DNA from: Rhizobium sp. Q54
GTDB taxonomy: Bacteria > Pseudomonadota > Alphaproteobacteria > Rhizobiales > Xanthobacteraceae
Assembly: GCA_945870035.1 (NCBI GenBank)
Contig: CAMBQQ010000021.1
Location: 1-49,161 of the forward strand
Direction of reading: 5' to 3'
DNA length: 49,161 bases
Under the pieces are notes generated by a model. That model was not told the origin of the DNA, made no database searches, and saw nothing but the letters and a program-made list of their open reading frames with translations. This document shows positions 7,839 through 47,167 of this stretch, in pieces (within the stretch, counting starts at the first letter, position 1; every line of letters starts with the position of its first letter). Position numbers and translations under genes: made by a program.

Positions 7839-9098
7839 ATGAAACGCAAATCACCGTCCAAATCGCAGGCCAAGGCGACCTCGGTCAGCCGCCGCACCTT
7901 TACCGCCGGTCTCGGCGCCGTGGGCTTCACCGCCGGTATCGCGCCGTTCAACATCGTCCGCGCCCAAGGCGCCGCCCTTAAAGTGGGCGTGTTGCTGCCG
8001 CGCTCCGGCTTCCAGGCCGGCATCGGCCAGGACTGCCAGCGCGGCGTCGATATCGCCGCCGGCCTGCTCAAGGATATGGGCATGCCCAATCTTCAGATCA
8101 TGAACGGCGACACCGAAACCAGTGTCGACGTCGCCCGCTCCCGCGCCGAGAAGCTGATCGGCGAGGGCGCGCAGGTGCTGGTCGGCGCTTTCGACAGCGG
8201 CCAGAGTTCGGCCATCGCGCAGGTCGCGGAGCAGAAGGGCATTCCCTACGTCATCAACATCGCCGCCGCGCCGCCGATCACCGAGCAGGGCTATAAGTTC
8301 GTATTCCGCAATTTCCCGACGGCGCCGATGATCCTCGGCGATGCTTTCGCCAACCAGAAAGAGATCTTCGCGACCACCGGCTCGGCGCCGAAGACGGCGG
8401 TGTTCCTGCACGTCAACGACACCTTCGGTACCGCGATGAAGGGCGGCATCGGCGCGGTCATGCCGAAGTTCGACATGCCCTACAAGATCGTCGAGACCAT
8501 CGCCTACGACCCGGCGGCGCGCGATCTGTCGGTCGAAATCTCCAAGGCCAAGGCGACCGGCGCCGAAGCGATGATCGTCGTCAGCCGGCTCAACGACGCC
8601 ATTCTGCTCACCCGCGAACTGGTCAAGCAGCGCTGGTCGCCGATGGCGATCCTGAGCATGGGCCCGGGCTGGTATGAAGATCAGTACATCAAGACCCTCG
8701 GCAAGCTGTCGGACGGGCCGCTGAGCTTCGTGCCGTGGTACGATCCCAACAAGCCGCTCAGCAAGACGCTCGAGGCGGCGCTTGCCAAGGCACATCCCGG
8801 CGTCAGCCTGAACACCAACCACGTCTATACTTTCGAGGCGTTGCTGGTGGCCGCAGATGCCTTCAAGCGCGCCGGCTCGACCGATCCGAAGGCGCTGGCC
8901 GACGCCATCCGCGCCACCAACATCACCAACAATGTCAGCCCCGGCCCCGGCATCATGTTCAATGCCAAGGGCCAGAACGACAAGCTCAAGCTGAGCGCGA
9001 TTCAAAACCGCGGCGGCAAGCTGGTCACGGTCGCGCCGAAGGTGGCTGCCAACGCCAAGGTGGAATGGCCGCTGAAGCCCTACGACAAGCGCGCGTAA
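7839..9098 (+). CDS. ABC transporter substrate-binding protein (LIV/amide type)
   Basis: 419 residues, Peripla_BP_6 fold (LivK/AmiC-like). The N-terminus carries a twin-arginine-like signal (SRRTFTAG at 17-24, hydrophobic core to about 36, cleavage near VRAQG-44), so it may be exported folded by Tat. The mature protein starts ALKVGVLLPRSGFQAGIGQD and has the two-lobe pattern of the family, including VGAFDSGQSSAIAQVAEQKG. Start ATG 7839 is preceded by AGGGAGG. Ligands of this family include branched amino acids, amides, urea and aromatic acids; none can be assigned. It is first gene of the importer operon, divergent from marR, and is followed by a hairpin that probably sets its expression above that of the permeases. 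Confidence 0.92.
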   Translation: MKRKSPSKSQAKATSVSRRTFTAGLGAVGFTAGIAPFNIVRAQGAALKVGVLLPRSGFQAGIGQDCQRGVDIAAGLLKDMGMPNLQIMNGDTETSVDVARSRAEKLIGEGAQVLVGAFDSGQSSAIAQVAEQKGIPYVINIAAAPPITEQGYKFVFRNFPTAPMILGDAFANQKEIFATTGSAPKTAVFLHVNDTFGTAMKGGIGAVMPKFDMPYKIVETIAYDPAARDLSVEISKAKATGAEAMIVVSRLNDAILLTRELVKQRWSPMAILSMGPGWYEDQYIKTLGKLSDGPLSFVPWYDPNKPLSKTLEAALAKAHPGVSLNTNHVYTFEALLVAADAFKRAGSTDPKALADAIRATNITNNVSPGPGIMFNAKGQNDKLKLSAIQNRGGKLVTVAPKVAANAKVEWPLKPYDKRA

Positions 9099-9118
9099 GC
9101 CGCTTGCCTCATGTTATT

Positions 9119-9144
9119 GCTCCGGCCGCGAACGCGGCCGGAGC
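9119..9144 (+). terminator. Strong stem-loop between the binding protein and permease genes
   Basis: GCTCCGGCCGCG (9119-9130) pairs perfectly with CGCGGCCGGAGC (9133-9144), leaving two bases between the arms. A short T-rich stretch follows (TTTGCGTATTT). It acts as a partial terminator or 3' stabiliser, typical after binding-protein genes that must be made in excess over the membrane subunits. Confidence 0.7.
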
Positions 9145-9166
9145 TTTGCGTATTTAGGATCATCCC

Positions 9167-10039
9167 TTGCCCTTCGACGTCTATCTCAATGTCGCCGTTG
9201 GCGGCCTCCTGACCGGCCTGGTTTACGGGTTGATGGCGCTCGGCCTGTCGGTGATCTTCGGCGTCGTGCGCGTGGTCAATTTCGCCCATGGCGAAGTGAT
9301 GACCATCGCCATGTATCTCGCCATCGTGCTGTTCTCCGCCCTGCATCTCGATCCGCTGATCATGCTGGTCCCGATCGCGGCGGTATTGTTCTGCTTCGGC
9401 TATGCCTTGCAGGCCGGCATCATTAATCCTTTCATCACCCGCGCCGAGCACATGCAGTTCCTGCTGCTGGTGGCGATCGCGATCATCATCATCAATGTGT
9501 TGCTGATCCTGTTCGGACCGGACGCGCAGAGCGTGCAGACGTCGTATTCCTACGACAGCTTCCAGATCGGAAAGTTGATCGTCGACGCCACCAAGCTCTA
9601 TGCGGCGGGCGCCGCGCTTGCCGTCGCGCTCGCGCTCTATGGCTTCTTCCAGTTCACGACGATCGGCACGGCGATTCGCGCCTGCGCCGACAATTATACC
9701 GGTGCGCTGGTGGTCGGCCTCGACGTCAAGCATCTCTATGCGCTGACCTTCGGTCTCGGCACGGCCTGCGTCGGCGCCGCCGGCGTCATGCTGGTGCTGA
9801 TTGTCGATGTGACGCCGTCGCTCGGGCCTGCCTATACGCTGCTTGCCTTCGTTATCGTCATTACCGGCGGCCTCGGCTCGATGCCCGGCGCGCTGCTCGG
9901 CGGCGTCCTCATCGGCCTGACCGAGGCGATGGCCGGACTGATCTTCACGCCGTCGGCGAAAAGCATGTTCGCCTTTGCCATTCTCGTACTGGTGCTGCTG
10001 TTCCGCCCACAGGGCATCATGGGCAAGAAGGCCGCATGA
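9167..10039 (+). CDS. livH: LIV-type ABC transporter permease (LivH family)
   Basis: 290 residues, inner-membrane subunit with about eight hydrophobic segments. The family N-terminal block is clear (GGLLTGLVYGLMALGLSVIF, then a conserved VNFAHGEVMTIAMY), as is the C-terminal block (GGLGSMPGALLGGVLIGLTE). No ATG opens this frame; translation most likely starts at TTG 9167, with AGGA at 9156-9159 as ribosome site. It overlaps the next permease by ATGA, implying translational coupling. Confidence 0.93.
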   Translation: MPFDVYLNVAVGGLLTGLVYGLMALGLSVIFGVVRVVNFAHGEVMTIAMYLAIVLFSALHLDPLIMLVPIAAVLFCFGYALQAGIINPFITRAEHMQFLLLVAIAIIIINVLLILFGPDAQSVQTSYSYDSFQIGKLIVDATKLYAAGAALAVALALYGFFQFTTIGTAIRACADNYTGALVVGLDVKHLYALTFGLGTACVGAAGVMLVLIVDVTPSLGPAYTLLAFVIVITGGLGSMPGALLGGVLIGLTEAMAGLIFTPSAKSMFAFAILVLVLLFRPQGIMGKKAA

Positions 10040-17830: not shown

Positions 17831-18388
17831 TCAAACCGACGTGCTTGGCTTCCGCGACCACCACGCAATGGCCAACAACAGGATGGCCGCGGCGACGAGG
17901 GCGATCAGCGACTCGTCGGGCACGTAGAAGGTTCTGTGCACTTCCCAGCCGAGCGGCCTGAGCACCTTGGAGAGGTCGGTATAGATGCCGGCGAGGTGGC
18001 CACCAAGCGTGCCGGTGATGCCGAGCAGGCCGGCGCCCAACAGCGCGAGCCCCGCCATGATCCAGCGACCAAGCCCGTGCCAAAGCGTTTCACCTCGCAG
18101 AATGCGCGTGACGAGCATCACGGCCCAGTACGCCGTCGTCCATACAGCGAGCACGATGTGGTTTCGGCCCATGGGAGTCGTTGTGACGGCATCCCACGGC
18201 CAAACCATCAGGCCGACCAGAATCGACAAGACTCCGGATGCGAGACCGAGCGCGAGCAGAGGCACAAGAGCCCGATCGATCGCGAGCGCGACCGGACCAT
18301 CGGACAGTGCGCGCCACACGATGGCGAGAGCGGCGGTCATCCAGAGAGCAATCGGGAAGTGGACGAGAACAACGTGATAGGCGGCCAT
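17831..18388 (-). CDS. DUF2231-like membrane protein, partner of the haem-binding protein
   Basis: 185 residues with about five membrane helices (near 5-27, 40-64, 77-97, 108-127 and 159-177). The first helix begins HVVLVHFPIALWMTAALAIV, the signature of DUF2231-type membrane proteins. Histidines at positions 10, 77 and 131 (the last in GTLGGHLAGIYTDL) fall near helix ends and could ligate haem, as proposed for related quinone-reactive membrane proteins; that is inference. It starts 2 bases after the stop of the EB_dh-like gene, so the two are one operon under the FNR box at 19917-19930. Likely the membrane electron-transfer partner. Confidence 0.75.
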   Translation of the reverse strand: MAAYHVVLVHFPIALWMTAALAIVWRALSDGPVALAIDRALVPLLALGLASGVLSILVGLMVWPWDAVTTTPMGRNHIVLAVWTTAYWAVMLVTRILRGETLWHGLGRWIMAGLALLGAGLLGITGTLGGHLAGIYTDLSKVLRPLGWEVHRTFYVPDESLIALVAAAILLLAIAWWSRKPSTSV

Positions 18389-18390
18389 GA

Positions 18391-19827
18391 TCAGGCTCCT
18401 TTACCGGACTTGAGAGTGGCGTTCATGGCCACAGCGAAGGCCGCGATGAGCAGAAGGCCGGCGAGCATGGTCAGCAGCCACTGCCTTCTGATCGCATCGT
18501 TGAACTCCATTTCGATGCCGTAATTGGCGAGCTCCAACTCGCCGTGACGGAACTTGACGGGAACACCGGCGCGAACCTTGTCGGCCCCCGGATGCTTGGC
18601 GCTGTTCACATGCGCCCAGCCTACCTGACCTGGATAGAACAGCGTCACGGCTTTTGCCGTTTGGTCCCACTTTGGCTCGTCGCCGTTGAATCGCACGGCG
18701 TTGATGTCGGCGTCGCGTCCGAGCCCGACAGTGAGCGGCAATGATACGTAGTGCCAGCGTCCGCCCGTCGCTTGCCGGTGGACGGCAAAGGCGACGTGAT
18801 AGACTCCGCGGTCGACAAAAATCTTGTCGTCGAGACGATTGCCGGTATCCATCTTCCGTCGCAGCATTACGTCCCACGAACCGTCGGCCCAAAGAGCAGT
18901 ACCGGCGACCTTGATGTCTGCGCGGGAGCCATCGCTGGCGCGGATGATACGGCGTGGCAGCGTATCACCTTCTTTCCAGGCGAAGGCCGGATCGAAGGGA
19001 GCCGCGATGTCCTCGCGCAAGGCGTGCTGCGAGTCCTGGGCGATCTTTCCGCTGACGATATCGTCCCATTTCAACGCGGTGTGACCGGCCTTGGCGGCAT
19101 CGAACATCAGGCGCGGCTGTTTCTTGCCATTATCCCAGTTGGTCGTGTACGGGCCCTTGCCGGCATCGGAGAGCCGTGCCTCGCCAACGATCTGGTCGTC
19201 CGACAATTTGACCGGGTTGGAGCGGGCGGCACGCCAGTGCCAAAGGTCGAGGAAGTATCCCGCAGCGCGCTGCGCTTTCAACTCATCCTCAGGTACGACC
19301 GAGAGATAATCGTTGATGTCGCGCCGCGTTGCCGGAAGGTACTTCGTCGGCTCGTCCTGTTTCAGTTTCTTACCCAGGTAAGAATGCTCTTTGATTGCTT
19401 TGCTATCGGTCTCGTCGCTGAAGCCGGCGAGCCCCTTGCCGATAGTGATGTAGCCGCCATAGCGTGAGAACTCGGGCACGCTGCCGTCATCGACCATCAT
19501 GGCAATGCGATCCTCGTGCAGTCCTTGCGGCTGCGATCCGGGCACAGCCCTGCCTTGCACCACCCATTTGCCGCCCTCGAAGCGCAACATGTCGTGGAAG
19601 ATCCCAGGCTTCGGCGATGTCCAGCGATAGCGGAAGAAGATGTCCTCGCCGTTGTAGGCGGCCTGTACCGAGAGCGGGACGGTCAAGGTCTTTGGGACTG
19701 CGATATGGCGTTTGGGGTCGTCTTTTACGACGCCTGTACCATGGGTGATCCAAGCGATCCCCAGTGCGCCCACGAAAATTGCGGCCGCGGACAAGAGCAA
19801 CGCTTGGGATCCTGTGCCTTTTGACAT
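18391..19827 (-). CDS. Ethylbenzene-dehydrogenase-like haem-binding protein, membrane anchored
   Basis: 478 residues. One N-terminal hydrophobic helix (about 10-28, anchor or uncleaved signal), a large periplasmic domain, and a C-terminal helix (about 450-470). The domain matches the EB_dh / DMSO-reductase-family haem b subunit: LTVPLSVQAAYNGEDIFFRY, HEDRIAMMVDDGSVPEF (about 104-120) and DLWHWRAARSNPV (194-206). The protein contains no cysteine, so any haem is non-covalent. In ethylbenzene dehydrogenase the gamma subunit binds haem b through Met and Lys. No molybdenum catalytic subunit or FeS subunit is nearby. ATG 19827 follows GAGGAAACC. Codons ending in A are more frequent than in flanking LPS genes, hinting at transfer. 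Confidence 0.82.
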   Translation of the reverse strand: MSKGTGSQALLLSAAAIFVGALGIAWITHGTGVVKDDPKRHIAVPKTLTVPLSVQAAYNGEDIFFRYRWTSPKPGIFHDMLRFEGGKWVVQGRAVPGSQPQGLHEDRIAMMVDDGSVPEFSRYGGYITIGKGLAGFSDETDSKAIKEHSYLGKKLKQDEPTKYLPATRRDINDYLSVVPEDELKAQRAAGYFLDLWHWRAARSNPVKLSDDQIVGEARLSDAGKGPYTTNWDNGKKQPRLMFDAAKAGHTALKWDDIVSGKIAQDSQHALREDIAAPFDPAFAWKEGDTLPRRIIRASDGSRADIKVAGTALWADGSWDVMLRRKMDTGNRLDDKIFVDRGVYHVAFAVHRQATGGRWHYVSLPLTVGLGRDADINAVRFNGDEPKWDQTAKAVTLFYPGQVGWAHVNSAKHPGADKVRAGVPVKFRHGELELANYGIEMEFNDAIRRQWLLTMLAGLLLIAAFAVAMNATLKSGKGA

Positions 19828-19916
19828 GGTTTCCTCATGGCTTTTTGTTTTGCGCCCGCAACACGACAGTACGTCACGAGCCATAGCAAAATGTAGGAGG
19901 GAACCGCAGCTTTCGG

Positions 19917-19930
19917 TTGATCTGAATCAA
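19917..19930 (-). promoter_or_regulatory. FNR/FixK-type box and promoter of the haem-protein operon
   Basis: TTGAT-CTGA-ATCAA is a perfect FNR/FixK consensus palindrome. On the minus strand a TACATT hexamer (19895-19890) lies at the expected -10 distance. If transcription starts near 19882 the box is centred at about -41.5, the class II activator position. The start codon follows about 55 bases later. This predicts induction at low oxygen or during denitrification. Confidence 0.75.
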
Positions 19931-45774: not shown

Positions 45775-46656
45775 TTACTTCACCTTCTTCGTCACCGTCG
45801 TCGGCAAAGGCGGCAACGCCTTGAGGTAGGCCGCGATCGCTTCGCGGTCCTCGTCCCGCATCTTGCCAGTGCTGTTGCGGACGACCTCGCCCATTTCGCC
45901 GCTGAATGTGCCGCCCTCAGGCAGCGTGCCGGTCTCCAGCGCATCGACGATATCGGCGGCCGACCAGTCGGCGAGGCCGGTCTTGTCCGGCGTCAGGTTT
46001 GACGCGACCAGATCGCCGACCGGCATGCGCGCGCCGGACAGCCATTGCTTGCGCTCGAGCCCGCCGAGCATGTCGCGTGGCGTGTGGCATTCGCCGCAAT
46101 GGGTCAGCGCCTGCACCAGATAGGCGCCCCTGTTCCATTGCGCGTCGCGGCTGGCGTCGGCTTTATATTCACCGGCCTCGAAGTTGAGCCACTTCCACGG
46201 GATCAGGCTGGCGCGGATCGAATAGGGAAAGTTCAGCTCATGCGCGCGGCTTGGCTTCTTCGATGGCGGCACCGTCGCCAGATAGGCTCTCAAATCGGTG
46301 AGGTCCTGCGTGGTCATCTTGGTATAGGCCGGATACGGAAATACCGGATAGTAATGCTGGCCGCTTGGCGACACGCCTTCGCGCAACGCTCGGATGAAAT
46401 CCGCGTTTGACCATTGGCCGATGCCGAACTCCGGATCGGGCGTGATGTTCGGCGCATAGAAAACGCCGAACGGCGTTTTCAGCGCCGGCCCGCCGGCCAT
46501 CGGCGCGCCGCCTTCCTCGGTATGACAGGCCAAGCAGCCCGCGGCGTCGAATATATATTTGCCGCGATCGGTCGAAGGCGATTGCGCGCCCACCTCCGCA
46601 CCGGCGGCCGCGATCGACACGGTCGCCGCGCAGATCATTTTAAGAACGAGCCGCAC
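45775..46656 (-). CDS. Dihaem cytochrome c (alcohol/aldehyde dehydrogenase electron acceptor type)
   Basis: About 293 residues, exported. Two haem c sites: CLACH (41-45) and CGECH (187-191), each in a class I domain, with candidate Met ligands downstream. FYAPNITPDPEFGIGQWSNA and VASNLTPDKTGLADWSAADI are the repeated blocks typical of cytochrome subunits of membrane alcohol, aldehyde and nicotinate-type dehydrogenases. The start is uncertain: GTG 46656 gives a charged signal peptide (VRLVLKMICAATVS...); ATG 46638 and ATG 46719 are alternatives. Convergent with the molybdenum subunit gene, and 16 bases after the cytochrome c' gene. Confidence 0.9.
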   Translation of the reverse strand: MRLVLKMICAATVSIAAAGAEVGAQSPSTDRGKYIFDAAGCLACHTEEGGAPMAGGPALKTPFGVFYAPNITPDPEFGIGQWSNADFIRALREGVSPSGQHYYPVFPYPAYTKMTTQDLTDLRAYLATVPPSKKPSRAHELNFPYSIRASLIPWKWLNFEAGEYKADASRDAQWNRGAYLVQALTHCGECHTPRDMLGGLERKQWLSGARMPVGDLVASNLTPDKTGLADWSAADIVDALETGTLPEGGTFSGEMGEVVRNSTGKMRDEDREAIAAYLKALPPLPTTVTKKVK

Positions 46657-46672
46657 CGAGGGGGCGTCCGGC

Positions 46673-47167
46673 TTATTCTTCGAAGCGGAATTTGCCGCCG
46701 CTCTTGGACGGCCCGCCATGACAGGCGCCGCAGGCCTCGGCGATTTTCGGCCATGCCGCCTTCATGCCTTCGACATTGCCGGCCTTGGCTGCTTCGGCGA
46801 AGACCGTGGTCTCCGCGACCAGTTTGTTGACCGCGGCGTCGAATTCGGCGCGCTGCGTCCAGATTTCCGGCTTGGCGCGCGTGTCGGGCGCGCCTTCGCG
46901 GCCGCTACCGGCGGGAAACAGCGTGCCGAATTTCTTCATCTGCGCGGCGGCCTCAGTCGCCTTCACCGCCAGCACCTTCGGGTCGCCTTCGCCTTTGGCG
47001 GCTTGCGACATGTCGCGGTAATAGCCGCGCCACAGACCCTTCATGAGGTCTTCGCGCTCTTGGGCGACTTCTTTGGGGCCGGGCGCAGTTTGCGCGTGCA
47101 AAGCGGGGCTTGCCGGGGCGAGGGACAGGATACCGGCGAGCGCGAAGGCCGAAACGATTCGAATCAT
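46673..47167 (-). CDS. Cytochrome c' / c-556 (class II)
   Basis: 164 residues. Signal peptide MIRIVSAFALAGILSLAPAS cleaved near ALHA-25. Four-helix bundle pattern with a single C-terminal haem site CGACH (146-150), the class II arrangement. GTLFPAGSGREGAPDTRAKP and EIWTQRAEFDAAVNKLVAE are standard family blocks. Residues after 150 are short and Gly-rich. Periplasmic; such proteins act in electron transfer or NO binding. Probably co-transcribed with the dihaem cytochrome. Confidence 0.92.
   Translation of the reverse strand: MIRIVSAFALAGILSLAPASPALHAQTAPGPKEVAQEREDLMKGLWRGYYRDMSQAAKGEGDPKVLAVKATEAAAQMKKFGTLFPAGSGREGAPDTRAKPEIWTQRAEFDAAVNKLVAETTVFAEAAKAGNVEGMKAAWPKIAEACGACHGGPSKSGGKFRFEE

Follow-up and report, generated by a model that had tools for sequence, protein, structure and literature searches.

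A cysteine-free EB_dh protein and its DUF2231-like partner form a conserved two-gene unit, a candidate module for low-oxygen electron transfer

What does a protein of the EB_dh family do when it is encoded among lipopolysaccharide genes and shares its locus with a small membrane protein? The question is raised by a stretch of 49,161 nucleotides from Rhizobium sp. Q54 (contig CAMBQQ010000021.1), hereafter called the window, in which a gene for an EB_dh protein (18391-19827, minus strand) is followed by a gene for a DUF2231-like membrane protein (17831-18388, minus strand). A first-pass annotation of the sequence had described the two as a haem module under FNR/FixK control. The analysis reported here shows that pair and upstream box are real and above chance, and suggests that the module, for which a mechanism is proposed below, adds a new variety to the electron-transfer proteins of the EB_dh family.

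The gene pair and its upstream box

The EB_dh gene encodes 478 amino acids without a single cysteine and matches PF09459 with an E-value of 9e-50 (170.3 bits, cut-off 33.3), the domain spanning residues 46-362 (18742-19692, minus strand). Hydropathy places one membrane segment at residues 9-27 and another at about 446-474 (18406-18492, minus strand), where the structure model has a helix at 443-476. The ATG of the DUF2231-like gene lies 2 bases past the EB_dh stop codon, and its product of 185 amino acids is only a weak match to PF09990 (E 5e-4, 20.7 bits, under the cut-off of 26.4), while its AlphaFold2 model (mean predicted local distance difference test score, pLDDT, 92.2) shows five long helices. 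Reading frames, PF09459 and hydropathy thus agree with the first-pass description of a cysteine-free, doubly membrane-anchored protein with a five-helix partner two bases on. No other match to PF09459 or PF09990 at E <= 0.001 was found in this genome (4.12 Mb, 189 contigs).

Genome contigs were then scanned with profiles, and the best 80 of 175 relatives were kept as named loci. The DUF2231-like gene stood directly downstream of EB_dh in 79 of the 80; in the exception, L083, the contig ends inside EB_dh and leaves no room for a partner. At L032 (7986-9395) the EB_dh frame is broken by an in-frame stop, which may mark a decayed copy or a sequencing error, and a DUF2231 match still follows; this locus is counted among the 79, and its row was omitted from alignments A5 and A6 and from the distance comparison. 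Residue, spacing, box and distance counts also leave out L017, L018, L019 and L021 (taken as duplicates of L063, L043, L045 and L048) and L020 (genome G022), which has no duplicate. The partner starts at +2 in 50 of 82 rows and at -4 in 20. Matches to PF09990 at E <= 1 occur in 58 of 61 partner family members and are mostly weak (best 1.8e-8).

The two genes also occur together across whole genomes. A search of 100 relatives found full-length EB_dh in eight genomes, of which seven (including the window's) belong to the window's genus and the eighth comes from a different family; seven further matches were distant proteins. A DUF2231 profile scored above 200 bits in exactly these eight and in exactly the nine EB_dh carriers of 151 Halomonadaceae, so that the partner subfamily was present in 17/17 carriers and 0/234 non-carriers among 251 genomes; the non-carriers held three weak DUF2231 matches of 25-45 bits. 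Pairwise distances of the two proteins correlated with r 0.72 (n=81) as against 0.15 or less in 1,000 shuffles, a correlation to which shared species history contributes. The pair is tightly linked and conserved as a two-gene unit, and the adjacency that had been claimed for this one genome holds across genomes. One locus, L051, carries two EB_dh homologues within 10 kb (493-1902 and 8499-9872) and stops right after the second.

Upstream of the pair, TTGATCTGAATCAA at 19917-19930 is the single perfect match to the FNR-family box TTGAT-N4-ATCAA in the window; if a single mismatch is tolerated, 4 matches occur where 0.78 would be expected. It lies between EB_dh and a kdsD-type gene of the same orientation that ends ahead of it. 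A count of every one of the 1,024 possible half-sites h-N4-rc(h) was made across 77 upstream regions, a set without redundancy. TTGAT was the commonest half-site, 38 regions having 9 or 10 of 10 matches, followed by TTGAC with 15; control regions upstream of other genes at the same loci, some of which may share one intergenic stretch, gave 31/705. Inclusion of L020, the best match of which is 8/10, changes the count to 38/78; that value comes from a box scan that also took in the rows left out here and the c-type L023. As to spacing, TTGAY half-sites 4 bases apart occurred in 27 regions, and each other spacing from 0 to 10 in none or one. Most of the boxes (30/38) are centred 60-110 bases before the EB_dh start.

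The perfect box of the first-pass annotation is therefore present, unique in the window and conserved upstream of relatives. The control that had been read from it holds in part: an FNR-family box precedes about half of the relatives, but FNR, FixK and DNR/NnrR are not distinguishable from such a sequence. Similarly, a -10 had been proposed at the class II distance; a -10-like TACATT (19895-19890, minus strand; 4/6 to TATAAT, found by inspection) is indeed near, but it is 1 base off that distance, and a promoter scan of the region found no -35/-10 pair.

The surroundings of the pair differ between most lineages and are common to close relatives, such as several Halomonas. Supported branches of the EB_dh tree join Thioalkalivibrio with Pararhodobacter, Oceanisphaera with a Myxococcota metagenome-assembled genome, and Nitrincola with Pseudothauera. 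The window protein clusters with L016, of the same genus, and L026, while L043 (taken as the same-genus genome G013) falls in another supported clade, and the genus therefore seems to have acquired the pair at least twice. By this tree the pair is a laterally moving unit, which supports the earlier suggestion that it arrived by transfer. The codon argument offered for that suggestion applies to one gene of the two: A-ending codons make up 12.1% of the EB_dh gene but 5.9% of the DUF2231 gene, which is inside the range of 3.3-8.5% in 14 chosen window genes. Among 119 other genomes sampled from the phylum, none contained a full-length EB_dh match, and a draw of 249 genomes queried with the c-type protein L106 yielded one other genome, G333, in which a DUF2231-like frame comes directly after a cysteine-less member (L118). 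A plasmid search returned no full-length match and one weak partial one, for an Azospirillum gene that bears the annotation NapC/NirT.

A rearranged relative of c-type EB_dh proteins

At E <= 0.001 the only PDB chains matched by the structure model of the EB_dh protein (mean pLDDT 87.8) are those of NxrC and EbdC, the best being 7b04_C (NxrC, E 2e-5) and 2ivf_C (EbdC, E 3e-5), with low TM-scores (0.21 by query). The available text of PMC8387239 gives Met155 and Lys305 as haem b ligands of NXR-C, "as in EBDH". The Met position probably corresponds to the site of Gly130. The Lys position most likely corresponds roughly to His359 (18751-18753, minus strand; 83/83 rows), as judged from piecewise alignments with a 2-residue offset; ligands of the EB_dh domain cannot be fixed in this way, since no more than short stretches of EbdC and NxrC can be aligned. 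Gly130 ends the stretch GYITIG (residues 125-130; 19438-19455, minus strand), which takes the place of CxxxCH in c-type relatives with both Cys and the His substituted. G125 is kept in 83/83 rows and G130 in 82/83, and Met110 and Met241 are each kept in 83/83. The first-pass label of a haem b domain is consequently not assured, as the position of the axial Met or CxxxCH His is a glycine.

A possible haem site is suggested by EB_dh proteins with c-type haem motifs, which turned up in the phylum search. In L106, L116, L119, L122 and L011 a motif FYPG...HxGA...CxxCH stands ahead of an EB_dh domain that bears GCWxxCH (a CxxxCH motif), and in L122 and L011 (the longer frame of the latter being L125) a NapC domain comes first. 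Residues 391-430 of the window protein (18538-18657, minus strand) align to the first of these motifs with an hhalign probability of 97.8. The shared pattern, VTLFYPGQ...HxGA...H, was defined here and not taken from a database. The copy in the window protein is C-terminal of the EB_dh domain and that of the relatives N-terminal, the order being permuted; its Cys are replaced and both His are kept. These are His412 of an HPGA motif (18592-18594, minus strand) and His428 at the His place of CxxCH (18544-18546, minus strand), each present in 81/83 rows with 2 gapped, and they are 16 residues apart as in L106; both are candidate haem ligands. The second motif, GCWLSCH, aligns ungapped to GGYITIG, and its His is the residue replaced by Gly130.

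A hidden Markov model (HMM) of the first motif, applied at E <= 0.01, recognised 80 of the 83 proteins of the family, and every one of these matches lay in the C-terminal region; the misses were L032 and L083, which are both cut, and L102. It matched no protein other than EB_dh among 6,455 open reading frames of the 80 loci, and 1,660 shuffled sequences gave no match at all. With 77 of the 83 proteins lacking Cys and six having one, neither CxxCH nor CxxxCH is possible in any of them. His412, His428 and His359 are almost invariant across alpha-, beta- and gammaproteobacteria and one Myxococcota genome, and His359 aligns with a His in the nirS-linked c-type relatives as well. In a tree of 49 rows the cysteine-less proteins separate from 9 of the 10 c-type or b561-type rows.

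The c-type relatives have other partners. L124 and L125 encode NapC-EB_dh fusions adjoining a NirS-type gene (cytochrome d1 and cytochrome c domains). Both also have another gene of the d1 type, which is NirF-like, and L125 has NirJ as well (TIGR04051, 605 bits). L126 has a NirS-type gene, NapC/NirT and EB_dh in a row, NapC/NirT preceding EB_dh. L023, from the window's own genus, has a c-type EB_dh gene followed by NapC/NirT (PF03264), which is the order of EB_dh and DUF2231; for L106 no NapC/NirT or nirS-type neighbours were recognised. By these comparisons the window protein is related to c-type EB_dh proteins whose partner is NapC/NirT, but is cysteine-less and rearranged; this relationship is new here.

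Three further observations concern these relatives. The c-type EB_dh frames beside or fused to NapC/NirT and next to nirS-type genes (L124:6084-9769, L125:7098-10789 and L126:3482-7090), for which NCBIfam has no model over its cut-off, are likely to encode electron donors to cytochrome cd1. A 607-residue frame at L013 (289-2109) joins an N-terminal part that resembles cytochrome b561 to an EB_dh domain with THMG at the CxxxCH place. The CxxCH region of L119 has a weak match to cytochrome c'' (PDB 1e8e_A, E 0.058), a hint as to the origin of the extra haem motif.

A low-oxygen electron route and the alternatives

The preferred explanation is a two-protein conduit, induced at low oxygen, that carries electrons from quinol to a periplasmic acceptor and is built without haem c; judged from the sequences, belief and doubt in it are evenly balanced. 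Quinol in the membrane would give up its electrons to the pair, with the DUF2231-like protein possibly standing in for NapC on the quinol side. Near the membrane, a b-type haem could sit between His412 and His428, and a second haem may lie in the EB_dh domain on His359, its opposite face altered. Among possible acceptors, a nitrite reductase or some other redox protein of the periplasm seems the most plausible, since the sister proteins adjoin nirS-type genes. A quinol- or nitrite/nitric oxide (NO)-linked unit, as the first-pass annotation had suggested, fits these sisters, whose partner is NapC/NirT and whose genes adjoin nirS-type genes in three genomes. The fuller version, in which the quinol-to-periplasm route of NapC/NirT and NapO has been rebuilt as an FNR-controlled two-gene cassette, the relocated motif of EB_dh binding haem b via its His pair and DUF2231 acting as a haem- or quinol-binding donor, is held tentatively and is somewhat on the doubtful side.

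In the partner, His5 and His10 (18359-18376, minus strand) are kept in 82/82 and 81/82 rows, His77 (18158-18160, minus strand) in 78/82 with Lys in the other four, and H131 in 71/82. The charges in the sequence suggest that the conserved His face the periplasm. In the expected topology the end of EB_dh and the beginning of its partner would lie on opposite sides of the membrane.

The locus itself does not name an acceptor. As first annotated, the pair sits between waaC (TIGR02193, E 1e-106) and a KpsF/KdsD-type gene (TIGR00393 above cut-off, KdsD equivalog model below), both recognised by TIGRFAM models, and a library scan of the window's proteins found lipopolysaccharide genes adjoining it and, in keeping with the earlier claim, no molybdoenzyme gene beside it. 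A protein with a cytochrome c domain (PF00034) is encoded at 45775-46719, distant from the pair. Neighbours of the pair at other loci were scanned where they had about 150 amino acids or more, with at most two per side per locus; this covered 81 of the 99 neighbours upstream and 87 of the 114 downstream, the omissions being mainly from loci with identical surroundings, and 128 and 137 families, respectively, were matched in all. No neighbour family conserved across lineages was found, most families having one or few members. Molybdenum or iron-sulphur subunits were absent from the 25 commonest families of the 81 upstream neighbours and from the 25 commonest of the 87 downstream ones, single cases being possible.

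Some neighbours recur near some of the pairs, namely histidine kinase and response regulator clusters (12 loci each) and PepSY-TM flavoprotein, ApbE, DUF2271 and PepSY clusters (6 loci each), every cluster being named after a single representative. At L035, L036, L045, L063, L067 and L068, genes for a PepSY-TM flavoprotein and ApbE lie near the pair, in many cases accompanied by DUF2271, PepSY and a histidine kinase with a response regulator. A function derived from these neighbours was considered and set aside, the set being too rare to define one.

A link to denitrification was evaluated in 40 of 80 carriers, which were chosen and not drawn at random. The cytochrome d1 family scored above 300 bits in 14 of them, matches that do not separate NirS, NirF and NirN; nirK was over its cut-off in 9, and either was found in 22. 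The window genome has one nirK match over the cut-off (331 bits). These counts in the 40 carriers are in favour of the conduit, along with the tight pairing, the box, the kinship with c-type EB_dh proteins and the NapC/NirT partners of the latter. So is Psest_0817 of Pseudomonas stutzeri RCH2, annotated "Ethylbenzene dehydrogenase" and compared here by annotation and fitness values only: the available text of PMC5554334 reports fitness values of -0.7 (control) and -2.1 (Cr(VI)) for it, and those of NirS (Psest_0815; -0.5 and -2.1) and NirF (-0.6 and -2.1) are similar.

Several points weigh against the proposed conduit. Neither nirS nor nirK was found in 18 of the 40 carriers. Among Halomonadaceae, nirS was present in 4/9 carriers and 22/142 others (p 0.048) and nosZ in 4/9 and 26/142 (p 0.078), both weak links, and in the window's genus nirK was present in 2/7 carriers and 6/24 others (p 1). 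A strict denitrification role was rejected, since the nirS/nosZ link is weak and a nirK link is absent, and a general low-oxygen electron route is the best reading in its place. No good box precedes 39 of the 77 upstream regions. The order of the partner genes matches that of the window only in L023. L108, a c-type protein on a very long branch, falls among the cysteine-less rows, and the direction of change from c-type to cysteine-less is not shown by the tree because it is midpoint-rooted. A quinol or haem site cannot be placed in the DUF2231-like protein because its model has no significant PDB fold match (best E 0.59, TM-score about 0.43). With Gly130 at the canonical axial position, the haem of the EB_dh domain may be gone. 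Finally, the fitness pattern of Psest_0817 is common to other genes in the same table of PMC5554334.

The same glycine admits a gas-binding unit, in which a five-coordinate haem on His359, with Gly130 opposite, would bind NO or oxygen, the pair sensing or removing NO at low oxygen and DUF2231 feeding electrons or relaying a signal. Loss of the CxxxCH His together with an unchanged His359, and the FNR-family box, speak for it. It is nonetheless unlikely: a Pfam scan found no signalling domain in either protein, the conserved His412/His428 pair suits electron transfer, and Met110 or Met241 could occupy the site.

If the haem sites had decayed altogether, the pair might be a haem-free descendant that binds another metal or serves as a scaffold, as the lack of any possible c-type motif and the lost axial position would allow. 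The near constancy of His412, His428 and His359 across lineages and the retained spacing of the His pair argue otherwise, and this explanation too is improbable.

A reductase in its own right, which would use quinol to reduce a small substrate in the periplasm and would go beyond a mere relay, is compatible with a two-gene unit that has no neighbour conserved across lineages; as no known catalytic centre was recognised in either protein, it is unlikely. A gamma subunit acting in trans for a molybdoenzyme encoded elsewhere in the genome is suggested by the EB_dh fold and by EbdC and NxrC as best PDB matches but is highly unlikely, given 23.5 bits against a cut-off of 169.85 for the type II dimethyl sulfoxide (DMSO) reductase gamma subunit (TIGR03477, EbdC; 20.8 against 400 for the EbdC model), Gly130 at the Met ligand position, a membrane segment at each end and a DUF2231 partner instead.

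Should the low-oxygen conduit prove true, it would provide the first function for this DUF2231 subfamily, as a haem- or quinol-binding electron donor, and an example from nature in which a c-type-like protein has been rearranged and has become b-type or lost its haem. Low-oxygen electron transport would also gain a branch that has not been described and that Pfam lists just as "ethylbenzene dehydrogenase". The prediction is directly testable, as it names two histidines, a partner and a regulator box.

Comparison with known systems

A literature search, outside which most subscription journals lay, found no description of an EB_dh-DUF2231 pair. As to DUF2231 itself (PF09990), the partner in the window scores under the family cut-off, and matches above 200 bits to the partner profile accompanied only this type of EB_dh in the 251 genomes searched.

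EbdC and NxrC have in common with the window protein a fold, as far as the model goes. The available text of PMC8387239 and PMC8840923 describes them as Met/Lys haem b proteins that are parts of molybdoenzymes and not membrane-bound, whereas the type II gamma Met site is Gly130 in the window protein and its Lys site most likely His359.

The first-pass statement that EB_dh domains are normally gamma subunits of molybdoenzymes proved too narrow. PcrO and NapO of Azospira suillum, according to the available text of PMC5845722, are di-haem c homologues of EbdC that receive electrons from the quinol dehydrogenases PcrQ and NapC. The c-type proteins L119, L122, L011, L106 and L116 appear NapO/PcrO-like from their architecture, a comparison made without NapO/PcrO sequences. 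With NapO/PcrO, as that text portrays them, the window protein would share EB_dh homology, a place in a relay downstream of a membrane quinol dehydrogenase and anaerobic respiration. It differs in that it has neither CxxCH nor CxxxCH and a single haem-type motif, which is C-terminal and not ahead of EB_dh; in its two membrane segments, where NapO/PcrO are described as soluble in the same text; and in a DUF2231-like partner instead of NapC/PcrQ. In gene arrangement the pair resembles the NapC/NirT and EB_dh units L124, L125 and L126, with which Psest_0815 and Psest_0817 of P. stutzeri RCH2 may be compared and which likewise combine a membrane partner with EB_dh, adjacent or fused; those units carry c-type haem motifs and are linked to nirS-type genes, whereas the window-type pair stands alone.

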